Part shown: piece after piece, positions 592-30,111 of the stretch
Numbering within the stretch: the stretch's first letter is position 1
Layout of the letters: every line of letters starts with the position of its first letter
Assembly (NCBI RefSeq): GCF_006740685.1
Contig: NZ_CP035425.1
Location: forward strand, 535,687 to 599,686
Source: Candidatus Nitrosopumilus sp. SW
GTDB taxonomy: Archaea > Thermoproteota > Nitrososphaeria > Nitrososphaerales > Nitrosopumilaceae
Length of the DNA: 64,000 nucleotides
Direction: 5' to 3'
Translations under genes and position numbers: made by a program
Notes under the pieces: generated by a model
What the model was told of the DNA's origin: nothing
The model's input: only the letters and a program-made list of their open reading frames with translations
Database searches by the model: none

Positions 592-691
592 AATTTACCT
601 GAGAATCATATCCAAAATAAGAGCTTTGAAAATACGAAATATGGCTAAAATAGGCTAATTTTTGTAAATTTTCCTAATCTCATTCTAAGGG

Positions 692-1090
692 TTACTGGAG
701 TACAGTTACAGGTTTTTTGAATACTTGTTTGTAATTTCTCTTTTGGCCATCTTTGAAAACAGTTTTTGGATAATGTTTCATGGAAAATGCAGCCATTTGA
801 TCTATAATTCCTTGGAGATCTTTTCCTTTTTTTGTTAATGTATACTCTATTCGTATAGGGGTTTCATCATAGACAGTTCTTTCAATAAGATTTGTTTCTT
901 CTAATTCCTTTAATCTCAAAGAAAGTGTTTTAGGATTGATATTTTCTATTCCCAAAAATTCATTGAATCTAGTTTGATTTCTCATGGCCATATTTCTAAT
1001 AATATGAAATGTGAATTTTTTTCCAATTATTTTAAAAGTATTATCCACTGGACAGTTTTTTATCATGTGTTCTAAAGTGGCATTAGTCAT
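692..1090 (-). CDS. HxlR-family winged-helix transcriptional regulator
   Basis: A 132-residue single-domain DNA-binding protein. An N-terminal CPVD motif (about residues 14-17) precedes a winged helix-turn-helix: the FNEFLGIENINPKTLSLRLKEL-type recognition region (about residues 42-63) followed by a wing ending in EYTLTKKG, typical of HxlR/DUF24. The CPVD cysteine is conserved in the family and is a redox sensor in some members; that role here is inference. It is divergent from a two-gene operon starting at 1237, and the intervening 146 bp hold repeated half-sites that look like its own operator. Confidence 0.85.
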   Translation of the reverse strand: MTNATLEHMIKNCPVDNTFKIIGKKFTFHIIRNMAMRNQTRFNEFLGIENINPKTLSLRLKELEETNLIERTVYDETPIRIEYTLTKKGKDLQGIIDQMAAFSMKHYPKTVFKDGQKRNYKQVFKKPVTVLQ

Positions 1091-1120
1091 GATTATGAAA
1101 TTATCAAAAGTGTATTAATA

Positions 1121-1232
1121 CTTACCTTAGTATAGTTACTAATAAAGAGTAACTAACCTTATAGTAATCAAGTATAGAGTTGTTCCCTTTCTGCTATAAA
1201 TATAGTATTGATAGTAACTAACCTTAGGTAAG
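1121..1232. promoter_or_regulatory. Repeated operator-like elements between HxlR gene and divergent operon
   Basis: The 14-mer AGTAACTAACCTTA occurs directly repeated at 1148-1161 and 1213-1226. TAGTTACT (1133-1140) and AGTAACTA (1148-1155) form a perfect 8-bp inverted repeat. The 20-mer at 1213-1232 (AGTAACTAACCTTAGGTAAG) matches the reverse complement of 1121-1140 at most positions. Three related sites in one divergent intergenic region are best explained as binding sites for the adjacent HxlR dimer; the assignment is inferred from position. Confidence 0.6.
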
Positions 1233-1236
1233 TAAG

Positions 1237-1395
1237 GTGAGAACAACTCAAACAAAAATTGCAGAAAAATCATTTGATGAATTGATTGAAATTTGTAAAG
1301 AATATTCATCAATGGTCGAAGTTATCACAAAAACGTCCCCTACATCAGTTGTTCAAAATCTAACTTCCTTTGAAAATATAGGAGGTGAAACATAG
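1237..1395 (+). CDS. 52-residue small protein of unknown function
   Basis: GTG-initiated ORF of 52 residues beginning MRTTQTKIAEK and ending ENIGGET. It starts 5 bp after the last operator-like repeat. Its final codons contain the GGAGGTG (1381-1387) that serves as ribosome binding site for the next gene, whose ATG (1397) lies 1 base past this stop. It is predicted largely helical with no transmembrane segment, cysteine pair or recognised domain. The tight coupling to the next gene and position immediately behind a putative HxlR operator support it being real. No family recognised. Confidence 0.5.
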   Translation: MRTTQTKIAEKSFDELIEICKEYSSMVEVITKTSPTSVVQNLTSFENIGGET

Positions 1396-1396
1396 T

Positions 1397-1714
1397 ATGG
1401 CATTATTTGGAATATACGGAAGACATGAAATTGACGCTTGCCCAATCAACAACTCCAAAAATAGAGAGATGATGGTAAAAATTGGAAAACGAGATATGAA
1501 AGCAGTCTGCTCTAATTACAAAATCAACAAGATAATTGGCAGATTCCATTCTGCACTAGAACACACATTCTTGTGGATAGTTGATGCAGAAGATCCTCAT
1601 TTAATTCAAAAACTAGCAATGGAAGGAGGAGTTGCAAGCTTCAATGAAGTCAAAATCGTACCACTAATCGAATTTGAAAACGTGGTAGAAATGTTAGAAA
1701 AAATGGACAAATAG
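1397..1714 (+). CDS. Small alpha/beta protein, possibly DUF3303-like, unknown function
   Basis: A 105-residue protein starting MALFGIYGRHEIDACP. I chose the ATG at 1397 rather than an in-frame GTG at 1385 because GGAGGTG at 1381-1387 is a strong ribosome binding site at the right distance. The central FLWIVDAEDPHLIQKL followed by a VKIVPLIEFE strand resembles the ferredoxin-like fold of DUF3303 and related dimeric alpha/beta barrel proteins, but the similarity is loose. It has a cysteine at residue 14. It forms an operon with the 52-residue ORF and is probably under HxlR control. Confidence 0.7.
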   Translation: MALFGIYGRHEIDACPINNSKNREMMVKIGKRDMKAVCSNYKINKIIGRFHSALEHTFLWIVDAEDPHLIQKLAMEGGVASFNEVKIVPLIEFENVVEMLEKMDK

Positions 1715-1720
1715 ACAGGA

Positions 1721-1745
1721 TTTTTTTCCTTCTTTTTCTTTTTTT
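1721..1745 (+). terminator. Pyrimidine-rich terminator after the HxlR-linked operon
   Basis: Within 7 bases of the stop codon at 1714 the plus strand has a run of T with a few interspersed C. Such U-rich tracts without a needed hairpin are the usual archaeal transcription termination signal. Confidence 0.6.
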
Positions 1746-1898
1746 AGATTTGAATCAGTTGAGGTTAAAAATACAATTTTAGGAATAGAGTGTATAGTAT
1801 TCCTAAGAGCTTTGAAAGTAGTAATTATGGCTAAAATATCAATTTCAGACTTGCAAATCAGATACAGAATTTTATGGTAAAAATCATTATTGTGTATA

Positions 1899-3110
1899 AT
1901 GGCCTTTGAATTTGATGTTGTTCCTACAATTATAGGAGTATTGTTTTTGGTCTTACCTGCACTTCTTTTAGGAAGACTATGCGCTCGTTTTAGAATATCC
2001 GAAGTGATCGGATTCGTATTTGCAGGAATTATTTTAGGTCCTACTGCATTAGGAGGAGTAATTCCAATTTTTGAAAAACCCATTGTAGAACTGAACGAAG
2101 TGATGTTAGGATTATGGCAGATTTCTGGAATCATAATTTTGTTTTCTGCGGGATTACACTTTACATTTCATGATCTAATTAAAGCAGGGCCAAAAGCTGC
2201 AATAATTGGGATATTTGGAGTCATTGTTCCTCTAGTGTCAGGATACTTTGTTGTTTTATTGATGGGATATGATTGGACTGTTGCTGTATTGATTGGTGCA
2301 ACACTTAGTGCTACAAGCATTGCAGTGTCTGTTGTAATTTTAGAAGAACTTGGAAAAGAAAAAACCAAAGAAGGAAATATTTTGGTAAATTCTGCCGTAT
2401 TAGATGATGTACTAGGACTTGCGATACTTTCAGCAGTAATTTCTATTGTTGTGATGAAGACAATTCCAACCATAGAATCAGTTGTAATAACTACAATTAC
2501 TGAAATTGGATTTTGGGTATTGATATTGTTAGGGGCAGTATATCTATTACCTAAGATAGTACATGTGGTTTCAAAAACACATCCATCAACGTTAGAAGAT
2601 AGAGGAACAAGACAAGGAGTTGCTTTGGGTTCAGCATTTGGTTTAGCTGCAATTGCAGCTAGTGTTGGATTGAATCCTATTGTTGGAGCATTTGCAGCTG
2701 GAATGGGTTTGGCAGATTCTAAACTAGCAATTCAGGTTCGTGAGTTTGTTGGAAGATTAAAGGTGATTGTAGCTCCTTTATTTTTTGCAGTAATTGGGGC
2801 ACATGTAGATATTACACAGATTTCTTTAATCAATTGGTTTTTGTTCATAGTGATTTTAGTTGTTGCAATATTTTCCAAAGTTCTAGGATGTGGAATTCCT
2901 GCATCAATTTTACTAAAAAGCAAGAAAAGCGGTTTTCTAATTGGATATGGAATGATATCTAGGGGAGAAGTTGCGTTTATTGTTGCAGGAATTGGATTAG
3001 CATTTCAGGTTCTTTCAGATGAGATTTACTCTACAATTATCTTTGTGATTTTAGCAACAATTTTCATTGCGCCAATATTGCTTAGAAAGTCATTCAAATC
3101 AATTGAATAA
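1899..3110 (+). CDS. Kef-type cation:proton antiporter (CPA2 family membrane domain)
   Basis: A 403-residue polytopic membrane protein made almost entirely of hydrophobic helices, ending a few residues after the last one, so there is no cytosolic TrkA-N regulatory domain as in full KefB/C. Visible family features include the N-terminal LCARFRISEVIGFVFAG helix, the LSATSIAVSV segment and GLADSKLAIQVREFVGRLK. It likely exchanges Na+ or K+ for H+. The ATG at 1899 is preferred over an in-frame TTG at 1890. It is flanked on both sides by a similar CCTAAGAG-containing element (see findings). Confidence 0.88.
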   Translation: MAFEFDVVPTIIGVLFLVLPALLLGRLCARFRISEVIGFVFAGIILGPTALGGVIPIFEKPIVELNEVMLGLWQISGIIILFSAGLHFTFHDLIKAGPKAAIIGIFGVIVPLVSGYFVVLLMGYDWTVAVLIGATLSATSIAVSVVILEELGKEKTKEGNILVNSAVLDDVLGLAILSAVISIVVMKTIPTIESVVITTITEIGFWVLILLGAVYLLPKIVHVVSKTHPSTLEDRGTRQGVALGSAFGLAAIAASVGLNPIVGAFAAGMGLADSKLAIQVREFVGRLKVIVAPLFFAVIGAHVDITQISLINWFLFIVILVVAIFSKVLGCGIPASILLKSKKSGFLIGYGMISRGEVAFIVAGIGLAFQVLSDEIYSTIIFVILATIFIAPILLRKSFKSIE

Positions 3111-3111
3111 T

Positions 3112-3133
3112 TTTCTGAACTGTTTTTCAGAAA
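3112..3133. terminator. Hairpin after the antiporter gene
   Basis: TTTCTGA at 3112-3118 and TCAGAAA at 3127-3133 form a perfect 7-bp stem around an 8-base T-rich loop, starting 2 bases after the antiporter stop codon. Confidence 0.45.
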
Positions 3134-3198
3134 TAGAACAAACATTCTTCCTAAGAGTTTAGAAAACGGCTTTATCCGGGTTATTACAAACATCAGAT

Positions 3199-3813
3199 AT
3201 GACATTAAAAAATGTAAAACCATCACTTAACAAAATTGCAAAGTCTTTAGGCGATGTTCAAGATTCAAGAGAATTTTTATTAAAAAATACCAGAGAAATT
3301 ATTGTTCTTTGTAGCAGATCAATAATTGCAGTTCATAAAAATGACACAAAGACAGGAAAAAGTAATCTAAAAAAAGCAGACATATTATTAAAAAAATACA
3401 AGAAAAAAGCAACAGGAGATCTTAGAAGATATATCATTACATCTGAACAGGAATTTGTAGAGGCAGCATGTCTAATTGCAGTTGTAGAGAAAAAAGAAAT
3501 CCCATCAGATAAAAAATTAGATGTCATGCCAGAATCATACGTTTTAGGATTACTGGATTGTGTTGGAGAGCTAAAGAGAATGACATTTGACAAGATAAGA
3601 ATTGGTGAAATTGAAGAAGCCACAAGAATTTTTGAAATAATGGAAAACTTGTATCTTCAACTTTACACTTTCTCAATGTACGATAAAGTTGTAAAAGAAG
3701 CTAGAAGAAAAATTGATGTGAATAGGATTTTAGTCGAGGATGTTAGATCTGCAATTACTGAAGAAAAGAGAAGAACAGAATTAATCAAAACATTACAAAA
3801 ATTTCAAAAATAG
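3199..3813 (+). CDS. Archaeal translin-family protein
   Basis: A 204-residue all-helical protein. The pattern of an N-terminal helix with REFLLKNTREIIVLCSRSI, mid-protein RRYIITSEQEFVEAACL and a late YVLGLLDCVGELKR helix matches archaeal translin, a relative of eukaryotic translin/TRAX that forms ring oligomers and binds or cleaves RNA. The EFVEA motif supplies acidic residues of the type used by catalytic TRAX-like subunits. A CTTTATCC TATA-like box lies about 30 bp upstream of the ATG. The precise substrate is unknown. Confidence 0.78.
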   Translation: MTLKNVKPSLNKIAKSLGDVQDSREFLLKNTREIIVLCSRSIIAVHKNDTKTGKSNLKKADILLKKYKKKATGDLRRYIITSEQEFVEAACLIAVVEKKEIPSDKKLDVMPESYVLGLLDCVGELKRMTFDKIRIGEIEEATRIFEIMENLYLQLYTFSMYDKVVKEARRKIDVNRILVEDVRSAITEEKRRTELIKTLQKFQK

Positions 3814-3827
3814 TTTTCAAATTTGTA

Positions 3828-3912
3828 TGCGGGCGATGGGATTTGAACCCACGAACTCCTGAGAGACTAGCCCCTCAAGCTAGCGCCTTTGGCCAGGCTG
3901 GGCGACGCCCGC
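3828..3912 (-). tRNA. tRNA-Leu (anticodon GAG)
   Basis: The minus strand folds into a class II tRNA: a 7-bp acceptor stem GCGGGCG (3912-3906) with CGCCCGC (3835-3829), anticodon stem CTAGC/GCTAG around TTGAGGG (anticodon GAG), a long variable arm and the T loop TTCAAAT. Discriminator A is at 3828; CCA is not encoded and there is no intron. Its TATA box (3933-3942) is shared with rpoN. Confidence 0.95.
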
Positions 3913-3932
3913 AAAGAAATTTCCATGTATGG

Positions 3933-3942
3933 TTTTTATAAT
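3933..3942. promoter_or_regulatory. Shared bidirectional TATA element for tRNA-Leu and rpoN
   Basis: TTTTTATAAT is AT-symmetric. Its centre is about 26 bp from the tRNA-Leu 5' end (3912, minus strand) and about 27 bp from the rpoN ATG (3965, plus strand). Both distances match the archaeal TATA-to-start spacing, so one element may serve both directions, with rpoN leaderless. Confidence 0.55.
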
Positions 3943-3964
3943 CCTTGATTACTTTTTCGTTCGT

Positions 3965-4201
3965 ATGTTAATTCCTGTTAGATGTTTTACGTGTGGAAAT
4001 CTGATTGCTGACAAATATGATGATTATCAAAATAAAATCAAAGCTGGAGAAGATCCAGAGAAAACTCTAGATTCCGTTGGAGTTGAGAGATATTGTTGTA
4101 GAAGGATGTTACTAACTACTGTTGAAACAATTCAACAAGTAATTCCATTCTATGAAGCAATTCAGAGAAGAAAGCAAGAAGTTCAATCTGAGTTAGAATA
4201 A
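3965..4201 (+). CDS. rpoN: DNA-directed RNA polymerase subunit N (Rpb10 homologue)
   Basis: A 78-residue small zinc subunit of archaeal RNA polymerase. It begins MLIPVRCFTCG, the invariant start of the family, and has the second zinc pair in RYCCRRM (about residues 43-49). The ATG at 3965 is chosen because the family always begins with this sequence; upstream in-frame codons would place non-homologous residues in front. It opens a run of rpoN, enolase and S2 genes, an arrangement common in archaea. The enolase start lies one base past its stop. Confidence 0.96.
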   Translation: MLIPVRCFTCGNLIADKYDDYQNKIKAGEDPEKTLDSVGVERYCCRRMLLTTVETIQQVIPFYEAIQRRKQEVQSELE

Positions 4202-4202
4202 C

Positions 4203-5441
4203 TTGGCCAAGATCACTTCAATTGAAGGACGTATTCTATACAATAGTAGAGGAAGTAAAACAATAGAAGTAGATGTTGAATCTGATGGAAAATACTTGGG
4301 AAGAGTTTGCGCTCCATCAGGTGCAAGCGTTGGAAAATATGAGGCAGTAAGTTTTCGTAATGGAAAACCTGAAGAGAGCCTTCAAATCTTAAAAGAAAAT
4401 TCTCAAAAATTTATTGGTTTAGAGTCATCAGATCTAAAAGGAATCCACGATACTCTGAAAAGTTTTGATAATTCATCAAACTATTCTGAAATCGGAGGAG
4501 CACTTGCTTTTGCAGTAACAATTGCATCCATGGAATCAGCCTCAAAAGCACTCGAACAGCCACTATTCAAAACACTATCAAATGAATCATCATTCAAATT
4601 TCCATTTCCTTTAGGAAACATCTTAGGAGGAGGAGCTCATGCAGGACCAGGTACACCAGATATTCAAGAAATTTTGATTTGTGCAACAGGTGCAAAAAAT
4701 ATTGAAGAGGCAATTGAAACAAACTTAGCAGTACATAAAGAATTACGTAGTGTTTTAGAAAAAGAGGATCCTAACTTTACAAATGGAAGAGGAGATGAAG
4801 GAGGATGGGCACCGAAATTAGAAAATCAAAAAGCATTAGAAGTTTCGGCAAAAGCTTGCGAAAACTTGGGATTTACTTTAGGAAAAGAAGTATCATTAGG
4901 AGTTGATTTTGCATCATCAACACAATGGAATGAAGAAAAATCAAAATATGTTTATGATAGAGCAGGTTTTGAAAATACAACATCAGAACAAATTGATTTT
5001 GCAGCAGACATTATTGAAAAATTCAAATTAATTTATGCAGAAGATGCAGTTCATGAAGAAGCATTTGAAGACATGTCAGAATTAACAGCTAAATTTCCAA
5101 ATACTTTGATTACAGGAGATGACCTGACAGTTACAAACAAAGGTATTCTTTCAAAAGCCATTGAGATGAAATCATGTAATGCTGCAATTTTAAAAGTTAA
5201 TCAAGCAGGAAGTCTTTTTGATGCTCTAGAATTTGCAAATCTAGCAAATGAGAACAATATCAGATTAATCACATCACACAGATCAGGCGAATCTACAGAT
5301 TCACAAATTTCCCATATTGGTCTTGCAACAAAGTCAAAAATGCTCAAAGTTGGCGTTGTAGGAGGGGAAAGAGTGGCAAAATTAAACGAATTATTACGCC
5401 TATCAGAGCATGATTTAATACGCGGTATGGCAGAGATTTAA
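4203..5441 (+). CDS. eno: Enolase
   Basis: Interconverts 2-phosphoglycerate and phosphoenolpyruvate in gluconeogenesis/glycolysis. The 412-residue protein has the N-terminal RILYNSRGSKTIEVDV, loop motif PSGASVGKYEA, Mg-binding acidic residues in LGVDFASS, YAEDAVHEEA and TGDDLTVTN, the catalytic lysine region AAILKVNQAGS and the SHRSGESTD signature. Initiation is at TTG (4203), giving MAKITSIEGR, one base after rpoN, so translation is probably coupled. Length is normal for archaeal enolase. Confidence 0.97.
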   Translation: MAKITSIEGRILYNSRGSKTIEVDVESDGKYLGRVCAPSGASVGKYEAVSFRNGKPEESLQILKENSQKFIGLESSDLKGIHDTLKSFDNSSNYSEIGGALAFAVTIASMESASKALEQPLFKTLSNESSFKFPFPLGNILGGGAHAGPGTPDIQEILICATGAKNIEEAIETNLAVHKELRSVLEKEDPNFTNGRGDEGGWAPKLENQKALEVSAKACENLGFTLGKEVSLGVDFASSTQWNEEKSKYVYDRAGFENTTSEQIDFAADIIEKFKLIYAEDAVHEEAFEDMSELTAKFPNTLITGDDLTVTNKGILSKAIEMKSCNAAILKVNQAGSLFDALEFANLANENNIRLITSHRSGESTDSQISHIGLATKSKMLKVGVVGGERVAKLNELLRLSEHDLIRGMAEI

Positions 5442-5448
5442 AATCGCT

Positions 5449-6072
5449 ATGAGTCAACAAGCAGAAACAACAGACATCAAGAAGAAGATCCTATCTACAG
5501 GAATCAGAGTAGGTACTCAAGTTAAAACAAAATTCATGAAACCATTCATCACCAAGGCCAGTCCAGAGGGACTCTACATGCTTGATTTAGATATTACACT
5601 AGACAAGATTAAGACTGCAGCCAAATTCATCAACAGATTAGGGGTAGAAAATCTCATTGTTTGTTCAGGCAGACAATATGCAGAAACACCAATTGAAAAA
5701 TTCTGTGAAACATTAGGTTCTAAAAAATTACTGGGAAGATTTATGCCAGGAACCTTGACAAATCCATCACTGCCATATTACATTGAACCAAAATTAGTTT
5801 TAATTTCAGATCCTCAAGTTGACGAACAAGCAATAACTGAGGCAACTAATGCAGGCATTCCAGTAATTGGAATTGCAAATACAGACAACATAACATCAAA
5901 TATCGATGTAATCATTCCAGCAAATAACAGAGGAAGAAAAGCATTAGCTACAGTTTATTGGTTATTGGTACGTCAAATTCTCATTGAAAAAGGAGAATTA
6001 AAAGAAGATGATCCAATGAACATTGAAATTGATGATTTTGAAACAAAGATTACCGAAGAGGAAATCGAATAA
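5449..6072 (+). CDS. rpsB: 30S ribosomal protein uS2
   Basis: A 207-residue small-subunit ribosomal protein with the archaeal/eukaryotic S2 pattern: GLYMLDLDITLDKIKTAAKF, then RFMPGTLTNP (about residues 95-104) and the late ISDPQVDEQAITEA and IPVIGIANTDN strands. The C-terminus is acidic (EEEIE). It follows enolase by 7 bases, consistent with one transcript starting before rpoN. Confidence 0.96.
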   Translation: MSQQAETTDIKKKILSTGIRVGTQVKTKFMKPFITKASPEGLYMLDLDITLDKIKTAAKFINRLGVENLIVCSGRQYAETPIEKFCETLGSKKLLGRFMPGTLTNPSLPYYIEPKLVLISDPQVDEQAITEATNAGIPVIGIANTDNITSNIDVIIPANNRGRKALATVYWLLVRQILIEKGELKEDDPMNIEIDDFETKITEEEIE

Positions 6073-6098
6073 ATAAATCAAAAACTTAAAGTGTTTAG

Positions 6099-7040
6099 TT
6101 GAAATCAAAAGCATCTGCTCCAGGAAAAGTTATTCTTTTTGGAGAACATTTTGTTGTGTATGGAGTAAAAGCAATTCTTTGTGCAATTAACAAAAGAATT
6201 ACAGTTACTGCAGAAGAGATTAGTGAAAGAAAAATTTCAATCAAATCCAATATAGGTGAACTTGAATTAGAACCAAACAAAGAAATTTTAGAAATTGATT
6301 CACCACTAAAACCATTTTATTATTTAGCAGATAAAATAATTCAGAATAAAAATTCTGGAATCAAGATAGAGGTAGAATCAGATATTCCATTAGGAGTTGG
6401 CTTAGGTTCATCATCTGCTTGTTGTGTAGCAGGGGCAGCCGCAATTTCAAAATTGTTTAAAGATATTTCAAGGGAAGAGATTTTAAAACTTGCAATAGAG
6501 GCTGAAAAAACAATTTTTCAAAACACTTCAGGTGCAGATTGTACCGTTTGTACTTTTGGAGGATTAATGGAATATGACAAGAAAAATGGATTTTCCAAAA
6601 TTGAATCTGAGGCTAATTTTCATCTAGTTATTGCAAATTCAAATGTTGAACACTCAACAGAAAGTGTTGTGGCAGAAGTAAGAAAATTCAAAGAGAATAA
6701 TGAAAATGAATTTTCAAAATTATGTGAAGATGAATCAGATCTAATAGAAGATGTATTAGGATTGCTCAAAGAGAATAATGTTAAAGATTTAGGTCAAAAA
6801 GCAATTCAAAATCAAGAATATCTGGAGAGAATTGGAGTTTCAAATGATAAACTCAGAAACATGATTCAGATTGGACAAAAAGCATCATTTGGAGCAAAAA
6901 TCACAGGGGCTGGTGGAGGAGGTTGTATTTTTGCCCTCACGGATGAATCAAATTTAGAAAACACCATAAAAGAATTCAATGAAAAAAAATACGAATGTTT
7001 TTCTGTAAAAATTGATTTCAAAGGACTGGATACTTTTTAA
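6099..7040 (+). CDS. mvk: Mevalonate kinase
   Basis: Phosphorylates mevalonate to mevalonate 5-phosphate for isoprenoid lipid synthesis. It is a 313-residue GHMP kinase with PGKVILFGEHFVVYG (about residues 8-22), the ATP-binding GLGSSSA (101-107) and the C-terminal KITGAGGGGC motif. Translation starts at TTG (6099); the sequence immediately becomes homologous (KSKASAPGKV). It begins the run mevalonate kinase, isopentenyl phosphate kinase, IDI, prenyl synthase, which supports the modified archaeal mevalonate pathway. Confidence 0.95.
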   Translation: MKSKASAPGKVILFGEHFVVYGVKAILCAINKRITVTAEEISERKISIKSNIGELELEPNKEILEIDSPLKPFYYLADKIIQNKNSGIKIEVESDIPLGVGLGSSSACCVAGAAAISKLFKDISREEILKLAIEAEKTIFQNTSGADCTVCTFGGLMEYDKKNGFSKIESEANFHLVIANSNVEHSTESVVAEVRKFKENNENEFSKLCEDESDLIEDVLGLLKENNVKDLGQKAIQNQEYLERIGVSNDKLRNMIQIGQKASFGAKITGAGGGGCIFALTDESNLENTIKEFNEKKYECFSVKIDFKGLDTF

Positions 7041-7063
7041 TTATATAGATAATTTGGAACAAC

Positions 7064-7807
7064 ATGATTCTCATAAAATTAGGCGGCTCAATTATTACAA
7101 ATAAAGAAAAACCACTATCTGCAAGAAGAAAAACAATAGACAGTCTGGCAAAGAGCCTCAAAAAGATCAATGAGTCAATAGCAATAGTTCACGGCGGAGG
7201 GTCTTATGGACATTATTGGTCTGTCAAATACGACATGCATACTAAAGAAAGAAAATATGATTTGAGAGGAGTTTCAATTGTAAAAAATTCCATGATAGAA
7301 CTAAATAAAATAATTCTAGATTCATTTCTAAAAAATAAATTAAATCCATATTGTCTACCACCTACAGATTTTATGACAGGAAACAAACCAATAACAAAAA
7401 AAGTAAAAGAAGTCGAAAAAATTTCAAAATCAGGCTTGATTCCAGTGACTTTTGGAGATGCATTATGGTATGGACAAAATAAGACATTCATTTTATCAGG
7501 AGATAAAATAATGACTCATTTTGCGAAAATCCTAAAACCCAAACTTTGTATTTTTGCTTTAAATGAAGATGGGGTATATTCTGATCTTAAATCAAAAAAA
7601 CTAATTTACGAATTAAAAGGAGAACTCCCATTGATTTCTGAAAATAAAATGGATGTGACAGGAGGAATGACAAGAAAAATTGAAGAAGCATCAAAAATTT
7701 CAAGGATGGGAATGAATGTATTTTTTGTAAATGGAAACAAACCTGAAAGAATCGTGAAAGCGATTAAAAATAGGAAATTCGAAGGAACACTGTTTAGAGG
7801 AAAATAA
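7064..7807 (+). CDS. Isopentenyl phosphate kinase
   Basis: Phosphorylates isopentenyl phosphate to isopentenyl diphosphate, the last step of the archaeal modified mevalonate pathway. The 247-residue amino-acid-kinase fold protein has LGGSIIT near the N-terminus and VHGGGSYGHYW (about residues 43-53), where the histidine after GGGS/YG is the family's catalytic and diagnostic residue. LSGDKIMTHFA and the C-terminal DVTGGMTRKIEEA motifs also fit. Its last base overlaps the ATG of idi, so the two are translationally coupled. Confidence 0.93.
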   Translation: MILIKLGGSIITNKEKPLSARRKTIDSLAKSLKKINESIAIVHGGGSYGHYWSVKYDMHTKERKYDLRGVSIVKNSMIELNKIILDSFLKNKLNPYCLPPTDFMTGNKPITKKVKEVEKISKSGLIPVTFGDALWYGQNKTFILSGDKIMTHFAKILKPKLCIFALNEDGVYSDLKSKKLIYELKGELPLISENKMDVTGGMTRKIEEASKISRMGMNVFFVNGNKPERIVKAIKNRKFEGTLFRGK

Positions 7808-8457
7808 TGACTGAAGAATTTGTTATATTGGTTGATGAAAATGACAATCCGATTGGAAAAGAAGAAAAAGTGAAATGTCATTTACCTAACGGAAAACTCC
7901 ATAGAGCATTTACTGCATTATTGTTTGATGAAAGTGGAAGATTGGTTTTAACAAGAAGAGCAAAAGAAAAAATGTTGTGGCCAGGAGATTGGGATGGCAC
8001 ATTTGCAAGTCATCCCAGAGAATCAGAAACTTATGTTTCATCAGGGGAAAGAAGAATGCCTGAAGAATTAGGAATTAAAGGAAAGTTGGATTATTTACAT
8101 AAATTTGAATATCATGTACCCTACAAAGATGTAGGTTCAGAAAATGAAATTTGTGGGACGCTAATTGGAGTCATTGACAAATCTACAGAGTTAAAAGAGA
8201 TCGAAGGAGAAATAGATGAAATTAAATGGATTTCAGCCAATGAATTGATTTCAGAAATCAAAACAAACCCTCAGATCTATTGTCCATGGATGCTAATTGC
8301 ATTAGAACTACTAGATAAATCAGAAAAGTCCATGTTAGAAAAACATGCAAATATCTTATCTACATGGATGACCAGTGAGATTCATGAAGGATTGCAAAAT
8401 GCAATCAAAACACATTTGCCACAAGAAAAATGGAGATTAGTAAATGAAAAAAACTAA
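7807..8457 (+). CDS. idi: Isopentenyl-diphosphate delta-isomerase type I, without the usual cysteine
   Basis: Converts isopentenyl diphosphate to dimethylallyl diphosphate. It is a 216-residue Nudix-fold protein with KLHRAFTALLFD, a Nudix box remnant around SSGERRMPEELGI and the catalytic-glutamate region SENEICGTL. In the E. coli and human enzymes the residue before (G/S)HP is the catalytic cysteine (VCGHP, CCSHP); here the motif is FASHP, with alanine in that place. I recall similar ASHP motifs in some haloarchaeal IDIs, so this may be a functional subclass. It overlaps the next gene by 14 bases. Confidence 0.88.
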   Translation: MTEEFVILVDENDNPIGKEEKVKCHLPNGKLHRAFTALLFDESGRLVLTRRAKEKMLWPGDWDGTFASHPRESETYVSSGERRMPEELGIKGKLDYLHKFEYHVPYKDVGSENEICGTLIGVIDKSTELKEIEGEIDEIKWISANELISEIKTNPQIYCPWMLIALELLDKSEKSMLEKHANILSTWMTSEIHEGLQNAIKTHLPQEKWRLVNEKN

Positions 8458-9424
8458 ACAAATTGAAAAAAATGCAAAAATTGTAAACAAGTATCTTAAA
8501 TCAAAATTAAAAGGGAATCCAAAAAAACTCTATGATGCTGCCGGTCATCTTATCGTTCACGGAGGAAAAAGACTTAGACCATATATGGTGATTAGAAGTT
8601 GTCAAATTTTAGATGGGAAGGTTTCCAATGCAATGCCAGCTGCAAGTGCAGTTGAAATGGTTCATAATTTTACTTTAGTCCATGATGACATCATGGATAA
8701 TGATGAGATGCGTCACGGAGTTCCAACTACACATAGGAAATATGGCATGCCAATTGCAATTCTTGCAGGAGACGTATTATTTTCAAAAGCATATCAAGTA
8801 ATTTCAGATACTAAATTATCACCAACTGCAACAACACATCTTATTTCAAGACTTGCAAAAGCATGTGTAGATGTTTGTGAAGGACAATTATTGGATGTCA
8901 AAATGGCAGAAGAGAAGAAAATTCCAACACAATCACAATACATTACAATGATTGGAAAGAAAACTGCAGCGTTATTTGATGTATCATGCGCAATGGGAGC
9001 TATATGTGCAACAAACAAGACCAAAGACATTTCAAATCTTTCTTCATTTGGAAGAAATCTAGGAATTGCATTTCAAATTACTGATGATTTGATCGGAGTA
9101 ATGGGAGATCCTAAAATTACAAAAAAACCAGTGGGTAATGATCTTCGAGAAGGTAAAAAATCACTTCCAATTTTAATGGCAATAAAGCTCGCAAAAGGTA
9201 AAGACAAAAAAATTATTTTGAAGGCATTTGGAAATCCAAAAATTTCAAGAGGTGAACTAAACAAAGCAGTAGGTGTAATTCGTTCCTTAGGCATAGAAGA
9301 CAGTGTTAGAAAACAGGCACTAAAATATGCTGAAAAAGCTGAAAAATCACTCTCAAAATATTCAGGCTCGGCAAAAACCGAACTTATTGCATTATTAGAT
9401 TTTGTAGTTAAGAGAAGTGTCTAG
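8444..9424 (+). CDS. Geranylgeranyl diphosphate synthase (short-chain trans-prenyltransferase)
   Basis: Chain-elongates allylic diphosphates to make the C20 precursor of archaeal lipids. The 326-residue protein has the first aspartate-rich motif DDIMDND (81-87) and the second at DDLIG (about 203-207), plus GGKRLRP for isopentenyl diphosphate binding. Phenylalanine is at the fifth position before the first motif, a chain-length determinant typical of archaeal GGPP synthases. It sits at the end of the mevalonate-pathway run and overlaps idi. A second paralogue is at 30158-31009. Confidence 0.92.
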   Translation: MKKTKQIEKNAKIVNKYLKSKLKGNPKKLYDAAGHLIVHGGKRLRPYMVIRSCQILDGKVSNAMPAASAVEMVHNFTLVHDDIMDNDEMRHGVPTTHRKYGMPIAILAGDVLFSKAYQVISDTKLSPTATTHLISRLAKACVDVCEGQLLDVKMAEEKKIPTQSQYITMIGKKTAALFDVSCAMGAICATNKTKDISNLSSFGRNLGIAFQITDDLIGVMGDPKITKKPVGNDLREGKKSLPILMAIKLAKGKDKKIILKAFGNPKISRGELNKAVGVIRSLGIEDSVRKQALKYAEKAEKSLSKYSGSAKTELIALLDFVVKRSV

Positions 9425-9444
9425 ATATCACCAGGTAAATCATA

Positions 9445-11154
9445 ATGGATGAAGAAATAAAAAAAGAAATTAGAAAAATGGCTCTTCAAAATGCTTTTGA
9501 GCATGGAGGCCAAACTCAAGATAAAATTATTTTAGGAAAAATTCTTGGAACAAAACCAGAATTTAGAACAAAAGTAAAAGAAATCTCAGGAGAAATTTCA
9601 GAAATTGTTGCATCAGTAAATCAGTTATCGTTAGAAGAACAACAAAAAGAAATGGAAGAGAAATTTCCCGAAGCATTAGCTCCTAAAGAAAAGATTGAAG
9701 AAAGAGAAGGGTTACCAGAATTAAAAAATGCAGAGCATGGAAAAGTTGTTACACGATTTCCCCCAGAACCAAACGGTTATCCGCATATAGGACATGCAAA
9801 AGCTGCAATAATTAATTCAGAATATGCAAAGATGTATGGAGGGAAATTCATACTTAGAATGGATGATACAAATCCGGAAGCTGAAAGAATGGAGTATCAT
9901 GCTGCAATCAAAGTAGGACTAGAGTGGTTAGGAATAGAATTTGATCTAGTAAAAAATACTTCAGACGATATGGAATTATTTTATGAAAAAGGAATGGAAT
10001 TAATTAATTCTGGAAAAGCATACATTTGTACTTGTAAAAGAGAAGACATCAGCAAGAACAGAAGAGAAAGAAAATCTTGCAAATGCAGCATGGAAGATAT
10101 TGAAAAAAATAATAAAAATTGGGAAAAGATGCAAAATAAATTCAAACCAGGAGAAGCAATAGTTAGATTTCGAGGAGATATGAAAGCAGATAATGCAGTT
10201 ATGAGGGATCCTGTGTTATTACGAATTATAGATGAAAAGCATTACACTGTAGGGGACAAATATAGAATTTGGCCTAGTTATGATTTTGCAGTAGCGATTG
10301 AAGATAGTATAGATGGCGTAACACACGCATTTCGTTCAAAAGAATTTGAATTGAGAAAAGAGCTTATCGATGCAATTTTAGATGCACTAGGCATGAGGAA
10401 ACCTCAACAGGGCTTTTTCTCTAGGCTTGAATTCAAAGGAATGCCCATATCAAAGAGAGTGATCAAGCCTTTGATTGAGGAGGGAAAAGTTTCATGGTAT
10501 GATGATCCCAGACTCCCAACTTTAGAGGCACTGAGACGAAGAGGAATAAAGCCCGAGGCAATTAGAAAGTTCATCATGTCTTTAGGATTAACTAAAGCAA
10601 ATACACTTGCCCCATTTGATGCACTTGAAGCATTTAATCGAAAATTCGTGGATGCAGATAGTATGAGATTATTCATGGTAAAAAATGCTAGAAAATTAAA
10701 AATAAAAAATTTACCAACATCAGTAGTTGAGATTCCTAATCATCCAGTAAATGATATGGGAAAAAGAAAAATCGAGATTACTGAAGATTTTTACATTTCT
10801 GGAGATGATGCAGAATTAATTAAAGAACAATCATCAATTAGACTTCTAGGATTAGGCAATGTCAAGATTACAAAAGTTAGTGATGAGTTTGAGGGGGAAT
10901 TTATAGAAGAAGGAGAGTCATCCAACATACCAAAAATTCAGTGGGTACCTCAAAAAACAGCTCATGAAATCAAAATGATTATTCCAAATATTTTGTTCAA
11001 TGGTGAAGAATTTAATGAAAATAGTCTAGAAGAATTAGACGTTTATACAGAACCCCAATATTTACAATTAAAAGAAGGAGAAGAGATTCAGTTTGTTAGG
11101 TTTGGATATTGTAGAAAAGATTCACAAAATCAAGCAATTTTTACACACAAGTGA
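9445..11154 (+). CDS. gltX: Glutamyl-tRNA synthetase, archaeal type
   Basis: Charges tRNA-Glu (and, in archaea of this type, often tRNA-Gln for later amidation). The 569-residue class I synthetase has an N-terminal helical archaeal extension, then RFPPEPNGYPHIGHAKAA with the HIGH motif at about residues 114-117, a cysteine-rich zinc insertion (ICTCKREDI with CKC) and a KMSKS-like PISKRVIKPL. The C-terminal beta-barrel anticodon domain places it in the archaeal/eukaryotic GlxRS group. It starts 21 bp after the prenyl synthase. A tRNA-Glu gene lies at 30018. Confidence 0.95.
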   Translation: MDEEIKKEIRKMALQNAFEHGGQTQDKIILGKILGTKPEFRTKVKEISGEISEIVASVNQLSLEEQQKEMEEKFPEALAPKEKIEEREGLPELKNAEHGKVVTRFPPEPNGYPHIGHAKAAIINSEYAKMYGGKFILRMDDTNPEAERMEYHAAIKVGLEWLGIEFDLVKNTSDDMELFYEKGMELINSGKAYICTCKREDISKNRRERKSCKCSMEDIEKNNKNWEKMQNKFKPGEAIVRFRGDMKADNAVMRDPVLLRIIDEKHYTVGDKYRIWPSYDFAVAIEDSIDGVTHAFRSKEFELRKELIDAILDALGMRKPQQGFFSRLEFKGMPISKRVIKPLIEEGKVSWYDDPRLPTLEALRRRGIKPEAIRKFIMSLGLTKANTLAPFDALEAFNRKFVDADSMRLFMVKNARKLKIKNLPTSVVEIPNHPVNDMGKRKIEITEDFYISGDDAELIKEQSSIRLLGLGNVKITKVSDEFEGEFIEEGESSNIPKIQWVPQKTAHEIKMIIPNILFNGEEFNENSLEELDVYTEPQYLQLKEGEEIQFVRFGYCRKDSQNQAIFTHK

Positions 11155-28473: not shown

Positions 28474-29079
28474 ATGGAATTTGTAAAAGAGTTTGCAACC
28501 TTTTTGCATCAAAAAGGCATCATAAAATTTGGAGATTTTACACTAGCCAGTGGAAAAAAGAGTTCGTACTATGTAGATTTAAGACTAGTTCCAAGTTATC
28601 CCCATGAATTTAGAAAGATGGTAAAATATCTAGAAAATGAAATTGCTCAAGATATAGGATTAGACAAGTTTGATTCAATTGTTTCAGTGCCCACAGGAGG
28701 CTTGGTAATTGCGTCAGCATTAGCAATTGAAACGGTAAAACCGTTAATCTATGTTAGAAGCAAACCTAAAGACTATGGAACTTCAAAATCAGTTGAAGGT
28801 AAAATTCATGATGGCATGCAAGTAGTAATGATAGATGATGTTGCAACAACTGGAGGTTCTGTTGTAAATGCAATCAAGTCATTAAAAGAAGTTAACATAT
28901 CGATAAAAGATGCATATGTGATTGTTAATAGAATGGAAGGAGCTGAAGAAGCATTAGAAGAATTAGGAGTTAAAATGCACTCAATTCTAGACATTTTACA
29001 AATTACAAAATCTTTAAACGAACAAAATCTAGTAGATAATGAAATTTTAGAAAAAGTGAAAAATCAAATTGGCAAATGA
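28474..29079 (+). CDS. pyrE: Orotate phosphoribosyltransferase
   Basis: Converts orotate and PRPP to OMP in pyrimidine synthesis. A 201-residue type I phosphoribosyltransferase with GDFTLASGKKSSYYVDLR (about 24-41), IVSVPTGGLVIASALA and the PRPP-binding MIDDVATTGGSVVNAI (about 122-137). GTVSG-type loop residues are in KDYGTSKSVEG. Archaeal length. Own promoter likely upstream at 28440-28460. Confidence 0.95.
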   Translation: MEFVKEFATFLHQKGIIKFGDFTLASGKKSSYYVDLRLVPSYPHEFRKMVKYLENEIAQDIGLDKFDSIVSVPTGGLVIASALAIETVKPLIYVRSKPKDYGTSKSVEGKIHDGMQVVMIDDVATTGGSVVNAIKSLKEVNISIKDAYVIVNRMEGAEEALEELGVKMHSILDILQITKSLNEQNLVDNEILEKVKNQIGK

Positions 29080-29082
29080 GTT

Positions 29083-29147
29083 TGGCAGCTCAGACAAATG
29101 CCTTCCAATCATCATTCAGATATAACTCTGATTCTTCATTGCAGCCA
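29083..29147 (-). ncRNA. Candidate C/D box small RNA downstream of tRNA-Met
   Basis: On the minus strand the order is C box ATGAAGA (29139-29133, one mismatch to RUGAUGA), 13-nt guide (29132-29120), D' CTGA (29119-29116), C' ATGATGA (29115-29109), 15-nt guide (29108-29094) and D CTGA (29093-29090). The ends TGGCTGC (29147-29141) and GCTGCCA (29089-29083) pair with one mismatch, as a kink-turn terminal stem would. D' and C' directly abut, which is unusual. It lies 43 bp downstream of tRNA-Met on the same strand, so it may be co-transcribed. Confidence 0.45.
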
Positions 29148-29189
29148 GTAAAATTTGATTGTGCTTATTTTAAAACTAACTGAAAATAA

Positions 29190-29263
29190 TGGGCCCGAAG
29201 GGCTTCGATCCCTTGGCTCACCGGTTATGAGCCGGTTACTCTACCAAGCTGAGTTACGGGCCC
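29190..29263 (-). tRNA. tRNA with CAT anticodon (tRNA-Met, or tRNA-Ile2)
   Basis: The minus strand folds with acceptor GGGCCCG/CGGGCCC, anticodon stem ACCGG/CCGGT around CTCATAA (anticodon CAT) and T loop TTCGAAG. Discriminator A at 29190; no CCA, no intron. Sequence alone does not fully separate elongator tRNA-Met from tRNA-Ile2 (agmatidine at C34). The promoter GGTATAAAA is at 29286-29294, centred 27 bp upstream. Confidence 0.9.
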
Positions 29264-29304: not shown

Positions 29305-29937
29305 TTAACAGTATTCTTCAAAGCAACTGTCCAATAACAAATTTTGTGCAGAAATAGATTTTTCAGCAACCTCAATTAATTTGTCATAATCAGTTGAAGA
29401 CTTTTCCAGAATATTTCTCCATGAAGCTGCATGTCTAATGTCAGCTTCTGTGTGTAGTTTGAAGTATTCAGTTGCTTCTTCACTAGTCATACCATAGAAT
29501 TCTGCTAAACCATCAAGTTTTGTTTGGCTGATTTTTGGAATTTCTTTTTCAAATGCATACATTGCACATGCACCACTTTCAAAAGTATTCATTAACTCAT
29601 TCAAATCAGATACAGCTTTTCTTGTTTTTGGTAGACCTGAATAAGACAATAATTCTTCTTCAGAAATTCCAAGTTCGCCTGCAAAAGCAATCCATGGTTT
29701 AATATGATCAGATTCTTCTTGTTGATTTTCAACCAATTCTTTAACAACAGATTCTGGGGCTTTGTCTATAATTGGAGCCATGAAGGATGGGACCTCTTTT
29801 ACTAATTGGAAATATTCCTTTGAATATCCTGCTAGAGATTCTTTAGTTAATTTTCCATCAGACCATGCTTGGTAAAATGGATGTTTTAGTAAACTTCTTT
29901 CTTCAATCATTTCATCGATTTTTTGAATTATGTTCAT
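29305..29937 (-). CDS. CADD/PqqC/TenA-fold metal oxygenase, possible pABA synthase
   Basis: A 210-residue helical protein of the iron-containing redox enzyme (TenA/PqqC/CADD) superfamily: LLKHPFYQAWSDGKL near residue 17, ENQQEESDH (70-78), FEKEIPKISQTK (129-140) and LHTEADIRHAASW (161-173). Against the C. trachomatis CADD residues I recall, spacing matches for the ligands E142, H174, D178, H181 (here E130, H162, D166, H169) and Lys152 (here K140). CADD makes para-aminobenzoate by sacrificing its own Tyr and Lys. ATG at 29937 is chosen because upstream sequence is tRNA-Glu promoter. Function remains inferred. Confidence 0.75.
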   Translation of the reverse strand: MNIIQKIDEMIEERSLLKHPFYQAWSDGKLTKESLAGYSKEYFQLVKEVPSFMAPIIDKAPESVVKELVENQQEESDHIKPWIAFAGELGISEEELLSYSGLPKTRKAVSDLNELMNTFESGACAMYAFEKEIPKISQTKLDGLAEFYGMTSEEATEYFKLHTEADIRHAASWRNILEKSSTDYDKLIEVAEKSISAQNLLLDSCFEEYC

Positions 29938-30017
29938 GGTTTGACTCCAAATCTGCCAATAAAAAAATCTTTGTGGTTTACAAAAGATTTTATGGTCAAA
30001 ATACAGAATTTTCTTGG

Positions 30018-30111
30018 GTTCCAGTGGTGTAGACCGGTCAAGCATACTGCCCTTTCAAGGCAGTGATCCCGGGTTCAAAATCAATCGATGAAAATCCCGG
30101 CTGGAGCACCA
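30018..30111 (+). tRNA. tRNA-Glu (anticodon TTC) with a T-loop intron
   Basis: Acceptor GTTCCAG (30018-30024) pairs with CTGGAGC (30101-30107); discriminator A is at 30108 and CCA is encoded at 30109-30111. The anticodon stem CTGCC/GGCAG encloses CTTTCAA (anticodon TTC). The T stem CCGGG (30069-30073) / CCCGG (30096-30100) encloses 22 bases instead of 7. Removing 30080-30094 restores the standard T loop TTCAAAT. TTTTATGG about 28 bp upstream is a plausible TATA box. Confidence 0.93.
30080..30094 (+). other. Non-canonical 15-nt tRNA intron with bulge-helix-bulge
   Basis: The exon bases TTCA (30074-30077) pair with intron bases TGAA (30089-30092), giving a 4-bp central helix. It is flanked by 3-nt bulges AAA (30078-30080) and AAT (30093-30095), with TC/GA closing a small loop inside. 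Cutting each bulge after its second base excises exactly 15 nt and leaves TTCAAAT. This is the archaeal splicing endonuclease substrate at tRNA position 59/60. Confidence 0.85.

Follow-up and report, generated by a model that had tools for sequence, protein, structure and literature searches.

C/D box sRNAs have been described in seven archaeal species (Dennis et al., 2015; PMC4644070), none of which is an ammonia oxidiser according to the account in PMC7994747. In the Dennis et al. study, a guide is accepted when at least nine consecutive pairs cover the +5 nucleotide, a double guide has two sites within 100 nt of each other, and helices 68, 69, and 71 are methylation hotspots, predicted sites in hyperthermophiles being densely packed around A1912 (PMC4644070). 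Archaeal C/D guides are described as evolving fast and having few sites in common (PMC7994747; PMC4644070). A second arrangement of relevance is the tRNA-C/D dicistron, known from N. equitans (sRNA8 after tRNA-Val), I. hospitalis (tRNA-Ser), and T. tenax (tRNA-Pro), as summarised in PMC7994747 and PMC3491384. Here we analyzed a minus-strand locus that shares with the double guides, as outlined in PMC4644070, the C-D'-C'-D box order, two 23S sites within 100 nt, the helix 69/71 hotspot, and the N+5 geometry; in common with the dicistrons outlined in the other two sources, the C/D sRNA follows a tRNA encoded on its own strand. The host has a complete 1.50-Mb genome, and the named relatives in its family are Nitrosopumilus, Nitrosarchaeum, and other ammonia-oxidising archaea. 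The locus is an unannotated member of the archaeal double-guide C/D class, a known kind of RNA of which this member has no Rfam family. It is very probably a free-standing gene for a double-guide sRNP; we infer that the RNA is expressed and that it directs methylation of A1912 and A1938 (E. coli numbering) in 23S rRNA. The features of the window (the whole 64-kb stretch of DNA that was analyzed) to which we refer are the following.

29083..29147, minus strand: C/D box double-guide sRNA, mature ends inferred from the stem boundaries
29141..29147, minus strand: terminal stem, 5' strand TGGCTGC, with a U.U mismatch at position 5 and covariation in relatives
29133..29139, minus strand: box C, ATGAAGA, invariant in 43 distinct sequences
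29120..29132, minus strand: D' guide ATCAGAGTTATAT, 13 nt, pairing with 23S GTAACTCTGA, N+5 = E. coli A1912
29116..29119, minus strand: box D', CTGA, conserved in close relatives
29109..29115, minus strand: box C', ATGATGA, abutting D', with a spacer of 0-2 nt in relatives
29094..29108, minus strand: D guide TTGGAAGGCATTTGT, 15 nt, whose AAGGCATTTG pairs with 23S CAAATGCCTT, N+5 = E. coli A1938
29090..29093, minus strand: box D, CTGA, conserved in relatives
29083..29089, minus strand: terminal stem, 3' strand GCTGCCA, with covariation in relatives
29165..29179, minus strand: TATA-like promoter element TTAGTTTTAAAATAA, centred some 25 nt before the sRNA begins
29190..29263, minus strand: tRNA-Met (CAT), a neighbour outside the sRNA unit
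28474..29079, plus strand: pyrE (orotate phosphoribosyltransferase, as labelled in the sequence-only reading), convergent, stop codon 3 nt from the sRNA

Read on the minus strand, positions 29147..29083 run TGGCTGC-A-ATGAAGA-ATCAGAGTTATAT(13)-CTGA-ATGATGA-TTGGAAGGCATTTGT(15)-CTGA-GCTGCCA, so that boxes C, D', C', and D stand in order around guides of 13 and 15 nt, in a class where about 12 nt or slightly more is the norm. The sequence-only reading had described these boxes and guide lengths, the abutting D' and C' boxes, and the single mismatch in box C, and all are as it gave them. Its pairing terminal stem also pairs, except for one internal U.U mismatch that it had not reported. A scan for C-D'-C'-D with generous spacings on both strands of the window returned a single site, the sRNA, and the same scan returned none in 60 dinucleotide-preserving shuffles. 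Because the boxes are short and box C is mismatched, one might suspect that box-like words have fallen together by chance and that no gene is present; given the empty shuffles and the conservation, covariation, and target matches described below, we regard the probability of this as negligible. The fold of the sRNA was no better than that of shuffled sequences (z -0.45), which is expected of C/D RNAs and uninformative for them. Genes for fibrillarin and Nop5 are present in the same genome, 0.4 kb apart. The gene 5' of tRNA-Met (29305-30045, minus strand) encodes a TENA/THI-4 or haem-oxygenase-like protein (Pfam PF14518, PF03070).

A comparison of the guides with rRNA, suggested along with the original box assignment, places both in 23S rRNA with correctly positioned nucleotides. 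We compared each guide with the 16S and 23S rRNA of its own genome and took the best match covering the N+5 nucleotide. For the D' guide this was 23S GTAACTCTGA, with nine Watson-Crick pairs and one G-U pair and N+5 at own position 2008; for the D guide it was 23S CAAATGCCTT, with 10 Watson-Crick pairs and N+5 at own position 2034. The two target nucleotides lie 26 nt apart, and the N+5 nucleotide is paired in both helices. In an alignment to the E. coli 23S gene, own position 2008 corresponds to A1912 (helix 69) and own position 2034 to A1938 (helix 71 region). Letter-shuffled guides equalled the observed score somewhere in 16S and 23S in 9.85% (D') and 6.05% (D) of cases, and both reached it in 0.45%, whereas both did so within 100 nt in 0 of 2000; a single guide match is thus unremarkable and the pair is not. 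The pairing of both guides and the distance between their sites agree with the rules set out in PMC4644070.

We searched 250 genomes of the family with an 80-nt query and found a match in 242 at E<=1 and in 218 at E<=5.5e-7; 24 matches were weak (E>=0.02) and eight genomes had none. Among 43 distinct sequences from close relatives, the D'/C' spacer varies, as do the D guide at its 5' end, the nucleotide adjoining box D, and the mismatched stem position. Boxes C, D', and D are constant but for single letters, and the only change in the pairing cores affects an A of the D' guide, in one sequence. The sRNA lies just 3' of pyrE in all 80 pyrE-anchored loci (in L085 it is truncated by the end of the contig). 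This conserved and convergent neighbourhood, with the sRNA ending 3 nt from the pyrE stop codon, is what one would expect of an antisense or 3'-end regulator of pyrE. The conserved block in relatives stops at the sRNA boundaries 29083..29147, that is, it is the sRNA itself; its guides match 23S rRNA, and distant homologs keep the guides amid unlike flanking sequence, which makes regulation of pyrE highly improbable.

To follow the RNA beyond the family, a covariance model built from the 43 close-relative sequences was searched against the class at E<=0.1, and 343 of 400 genomes matched (207 of 220 among those with completeness of 90% or more and contamination of 5% or less). A second model, made from 30 distant members and the window, was searched against the phylum at E<=0.01 and matched 259 of 398 genomes, leaving 139 without a match; split by row count, these matches are 74/74 within the class and 185/324 beyond it. 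In 30 class homologs that we read, AAGGCATT is present in 28, exact CAGAGTTA in 24, and a CA[GA]AGTT core in 29. The D guide of 30 phylum homologs from outside the class contains AAGGCATT in 26; their D' guides fall into CAGAGTTA (11), CAAAGTTA (4), an AC[TC][TC]CCG type (11), and others (4). These core counts omit the window row and are biased upwards, because the search models contain the guide cores and we picked the homologs among the matching genomes. The boxes, guides, and stem proposed from the sequence are kept in relatives phylum-wide, and with covariation.

The terminal stem, which closes the C/D k-turn, shows compensatory change: 47 double-compensatory cells in alignment A2 and 50 in alignment A3, with neither number reached in 500 shuffles, and with at most 5 (A2) and 15 (A3) double-change cells for slid versions of the stem. 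At stem position 5 (29143 with 29087), Nitrosopumilaceae have U.U, C.U, U.C, A.A, or A.G; by eye, no standard pair occurs there in 43 distinct sequences. Most sequences outside the family have a true pair at this position.

Guide and target co-vary across homologs. We sought 23S genes in 37 homolog genomes and found them in 26 (10 of 15 and 16 of 22), which together with the own genome gives 27 guide-target pairs. In 26 of the 27, the helix made by the D guide is 8 bp or longer and occupies the same 23S site; in L222 it has 7 bp. For the D' guide, the target region is uninterrupted in 20 pairs, 19 of which have a helix of at least 8 bp, including L221 with four G-U pairs; no match for the D' guide of L211 was found in its own 23S. 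The remaining seven pairs have an insertion, probably an intron, between the two target sites, and inspection of the upstream exon by eye gave a match in four and a D' helix with one mismatch in three (L194, L197, and L198). In L199, the helix 69 loop reads GTAATCCTGAC in place of GTAACTCTGAC, and its own D' guide GTCAGGATTAC complements 11 of 11 nucleotides. The AC[TC][TC]CCG-type D' guides have the adjacent 5' strand of helix 69 as target: in L215 and L218, TTACCCCCG pairs with their own 23S CGGGGGTAA (CCCCC with GGGGG), and in L220, TTACTCCCGGC pairs with GCCGGGAGTAA (CTCCC with GGGAG). Taken together, the 23S matches, the phylum-wide conservation, the stem covariation, and the guide-target co-variation strongly support the identity as a C/D guide sRNA that the sequence-only reading had put forward as possible. 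Among individual genomes, L178, a class member, resembles the group outside the class in that its D' guide is directed at the neighbouring 5' strand of helix 69; its A1938 guide is retained. Interrupted 23S genes (7 of the 26 distant genomes) are those of L182, L226, L229, L231, L232, L235, and L237, and three genomes with an interrupted 23S also carry the mismatched D' guide CAAAGTTA.

On the proposed mechanism, RNA polymerase would start at about 29147 from the TATA box, and the RNA of about 65 nt would fold into a C/D k-turn and a C'/D' k-loop and be bound by L7Ae, Nop5, and fibrillarin. The resulting sRNP would base-pair simultaneously with helix 69 and the helix 71 region of nascent 23S rRNA, allowing fibrillarin to 2'-O-methylate A1912 via the D' guide and A1938 via the D guide. 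The double pairing, 26 nt apart, may also keep this 23S region open during assembly. The spacing to the D' box bears on which nucleotide would be modified. In all 42 close relatives counted, 3 nt separate the CAGAGTTA core from CTGA (N+5 = A1912). Class homologs have CTGA 2 nt after the core in 7 of 30 (N+5 = A1913) and 3 nt after it in 3 of 30; 19 of 30 have no CTGA D' box at the expected spacing, and one lacks such a guide. In lineages where the D' guide sits one nucleotide closer to D', A1913 would be methylated instead. Since a CTGA D' box is unrecognisable in 19 of the 30 distant class homologs, D'-directed methylation may not hold everywhere, although by eye most of the 19 retain NNGA.

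This decay of the D' box can also be read as a sign that the main selected role is that of an RNA chaperone, a double-pairing clamp from helix 69 to helix 71 during assembly, for which methylation at the D' site is optional. D' pairing is retained in many distant homologs that lack a recognisable CTGA box, a group outside the class has its D' guide shifted to the adjacent 5' strand of helix 69 with the D guide unmoved, and such roles have been proposed for some C/D sRNAs (PMC4644070). The perfect CTGA of the close relatives, the NNGA kept in most degenerate boxes, and the paired N+5 nucleotide speak for methylation, and we consider a clamp as the main role unlikely. An equally doubtful extension would have the guide date back to the ancestor of the phylum and serve chiefly as a clamp during assembly: selection would maintain its double contact, with the A1938 guide fixed, the D' guide sliding in helix 69, and the D' box decaying. 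If eukaryotes methylate the same sites, it would correspond to two distinct eukaryotic snoRNAs. Yeast snR13 and snR63 guide 25S Am2281 and Am2256, which would be equivalent to E. coli A1938 and A1913; these are two separate snoRNAs, whereas here a single double guide is found. Methylation of A1912 and A1938 by one sRNP remains our preferred reading.

The sequence-only reading had found no obvious promoter upstream other than that of tRNA-Met and had proposed that the two genes may form a dicistronic transcript, in which the sRNA would be transcribed from the tRNA promoter and freed by tRNA 3' processing. The arrangement is suggestive: in a set of 110 Nitrosopumilaceae loci, some of which are one genome in two collections, tRNA-Met lies on the same strand 37-43 nt upstream of the matched start in 90, and tRNA-C/D dicistrons are known from the other archaea named in PMC7994747 and PMC3491384. 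The first claim fails, because a conserved TATA-like TTTTAAAAT lies at 29175..29167, between tRNA-Met and the sRNA. Its distance of about 25 nt from centre to stem is close to the archaeal TATA distance of 26-27 nt given in PMC3491384. Every locus with sufficient sequence (109 of 109) contains TTTTAAA, among them 19 of the 20 without adjacent tRNA-Met (the twentieth, L085, is partial and was left out of the 19 testable loci). Positions -41 to -31 from the T of TGAAGA are 93-100% identical both with and without the tRNA (67 and 15 distinct sequences, respectively), and most of positions -25 to -10 vary.

A similar signal is seen farther away. In the sequence preceding 59 distant homologs, a maximum in AT content of 78-79% falls at -32 to -24, compared with about 50-65% farther upstream, and TATA-like hexamers number 19 in the bin from -30 to -21 and at most five in every other bin. 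In none of 30 distant class loci does tRNA-Met adjoin the sRNA, and the tRNA neighbourhood is a feature of this family alone. Judged by sequence, the sRNA therefore has its own conserved promoter element, and given the AT peak upstream of distant homologs that lack an adjacent tRNA-Met, this promoter is probably older than the tRNA neighbourhood, so that a dicistron is not needed to explain expression. A member of a dicistron would lack a promoter of its own and depend on that of the tRNA; the sequence instead has a predicted promoter that is kept where insertions have displaced the tRNA and in tRNA-less distant homologs. Unlike the known dicistrons, the locus has a spacer of about 40 nt that holds the conserved TATA element and retains it when the tRNA has moved away, and the near-fixed length of the spacer is explained by the promoter sitting in it. 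A dicistron with tRNA-Met is consequently very improbable in our view, and we reject it as the main mode of expression on account of the intervening promoter element, the insertions, and the tRNA-less distant homologs. Occasional read-through from tRNA-Met into the sRNA may occur.

The loci without an adjacent tRNA-Met carry traces of its displacement. A remnant of the tRNA-Met 3' end precedes the TATA element in 14 of the 19 testable loci; loci of this type include L145 (16809-18840), L019, L038, L045, L046, L063, L076, L077, L082, L092, L100, and L110. In L145, an intact tRNA-Met lies about 1.9 kb upstream, and a 319-aa ORF between the two has a Phage_integrase match (E 4.4e-6) at 27.0 bits, against a cut-off of 27.1. 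This insertion looks like an integration at the tRNA 3' end, and in Nitrosopumilaceae integration apparently takes place at the 3' end of tRNA-Met (CAT). In L147 (about 600-9500), roughly 9 kb separate the sRNA from tRNA-Met and include a DUF4143 protein and an integrase N-terminal-like ORF (E 0.0069, below the cut-off); no tRNA remnant was seen. These insertions amount to a natural experiment and suggest that the sRNA is independent of the tRNA.

The conservation depth of this double guide is unusual against the accounts in PMC7994747 and PMC4644070. In the seven-species set, about 17% of sites are common to more than one species and partner guides are often unrelated (PMC4644070), whereas here the same two targets are kept across much of the class. 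With both targets over the class and at least one over the phylum, the sRNA is an exception to the fast-evolving picture and singles out helix 69/71 methylation as important in mesophilic ammonia oxidisers as well. The locus provides two exact nucleotides for testing in culturable Nitrosopumilus, as well as a seed for an RNA family. A search of an open-access literature collection returned no report of this sRNA and none pairing Nitrosopumilus with box sRNA; the portion of the Red Sea mdRNA-Seq paper covered (PMC5069720) contained no mention of it. Crenarchaeal relatives of this family may be among the sRNAs of PMC4644070. No Rfam family reached its gathering score on the window sRNA or on the homologous stretch in any of the 20 distant phylum loci (out of 30) that were tested. 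The archaeal C/D families of Rfam, such as RF01150 (sR11), belong to the same class of RNA. In L215, the homolog (1501-1562) and a match to Rfam sR11 (1559-1617) lie end to end as two tandem C/D sRNAs, with the sR11 match overlapping the last 4 nt of the homolog.
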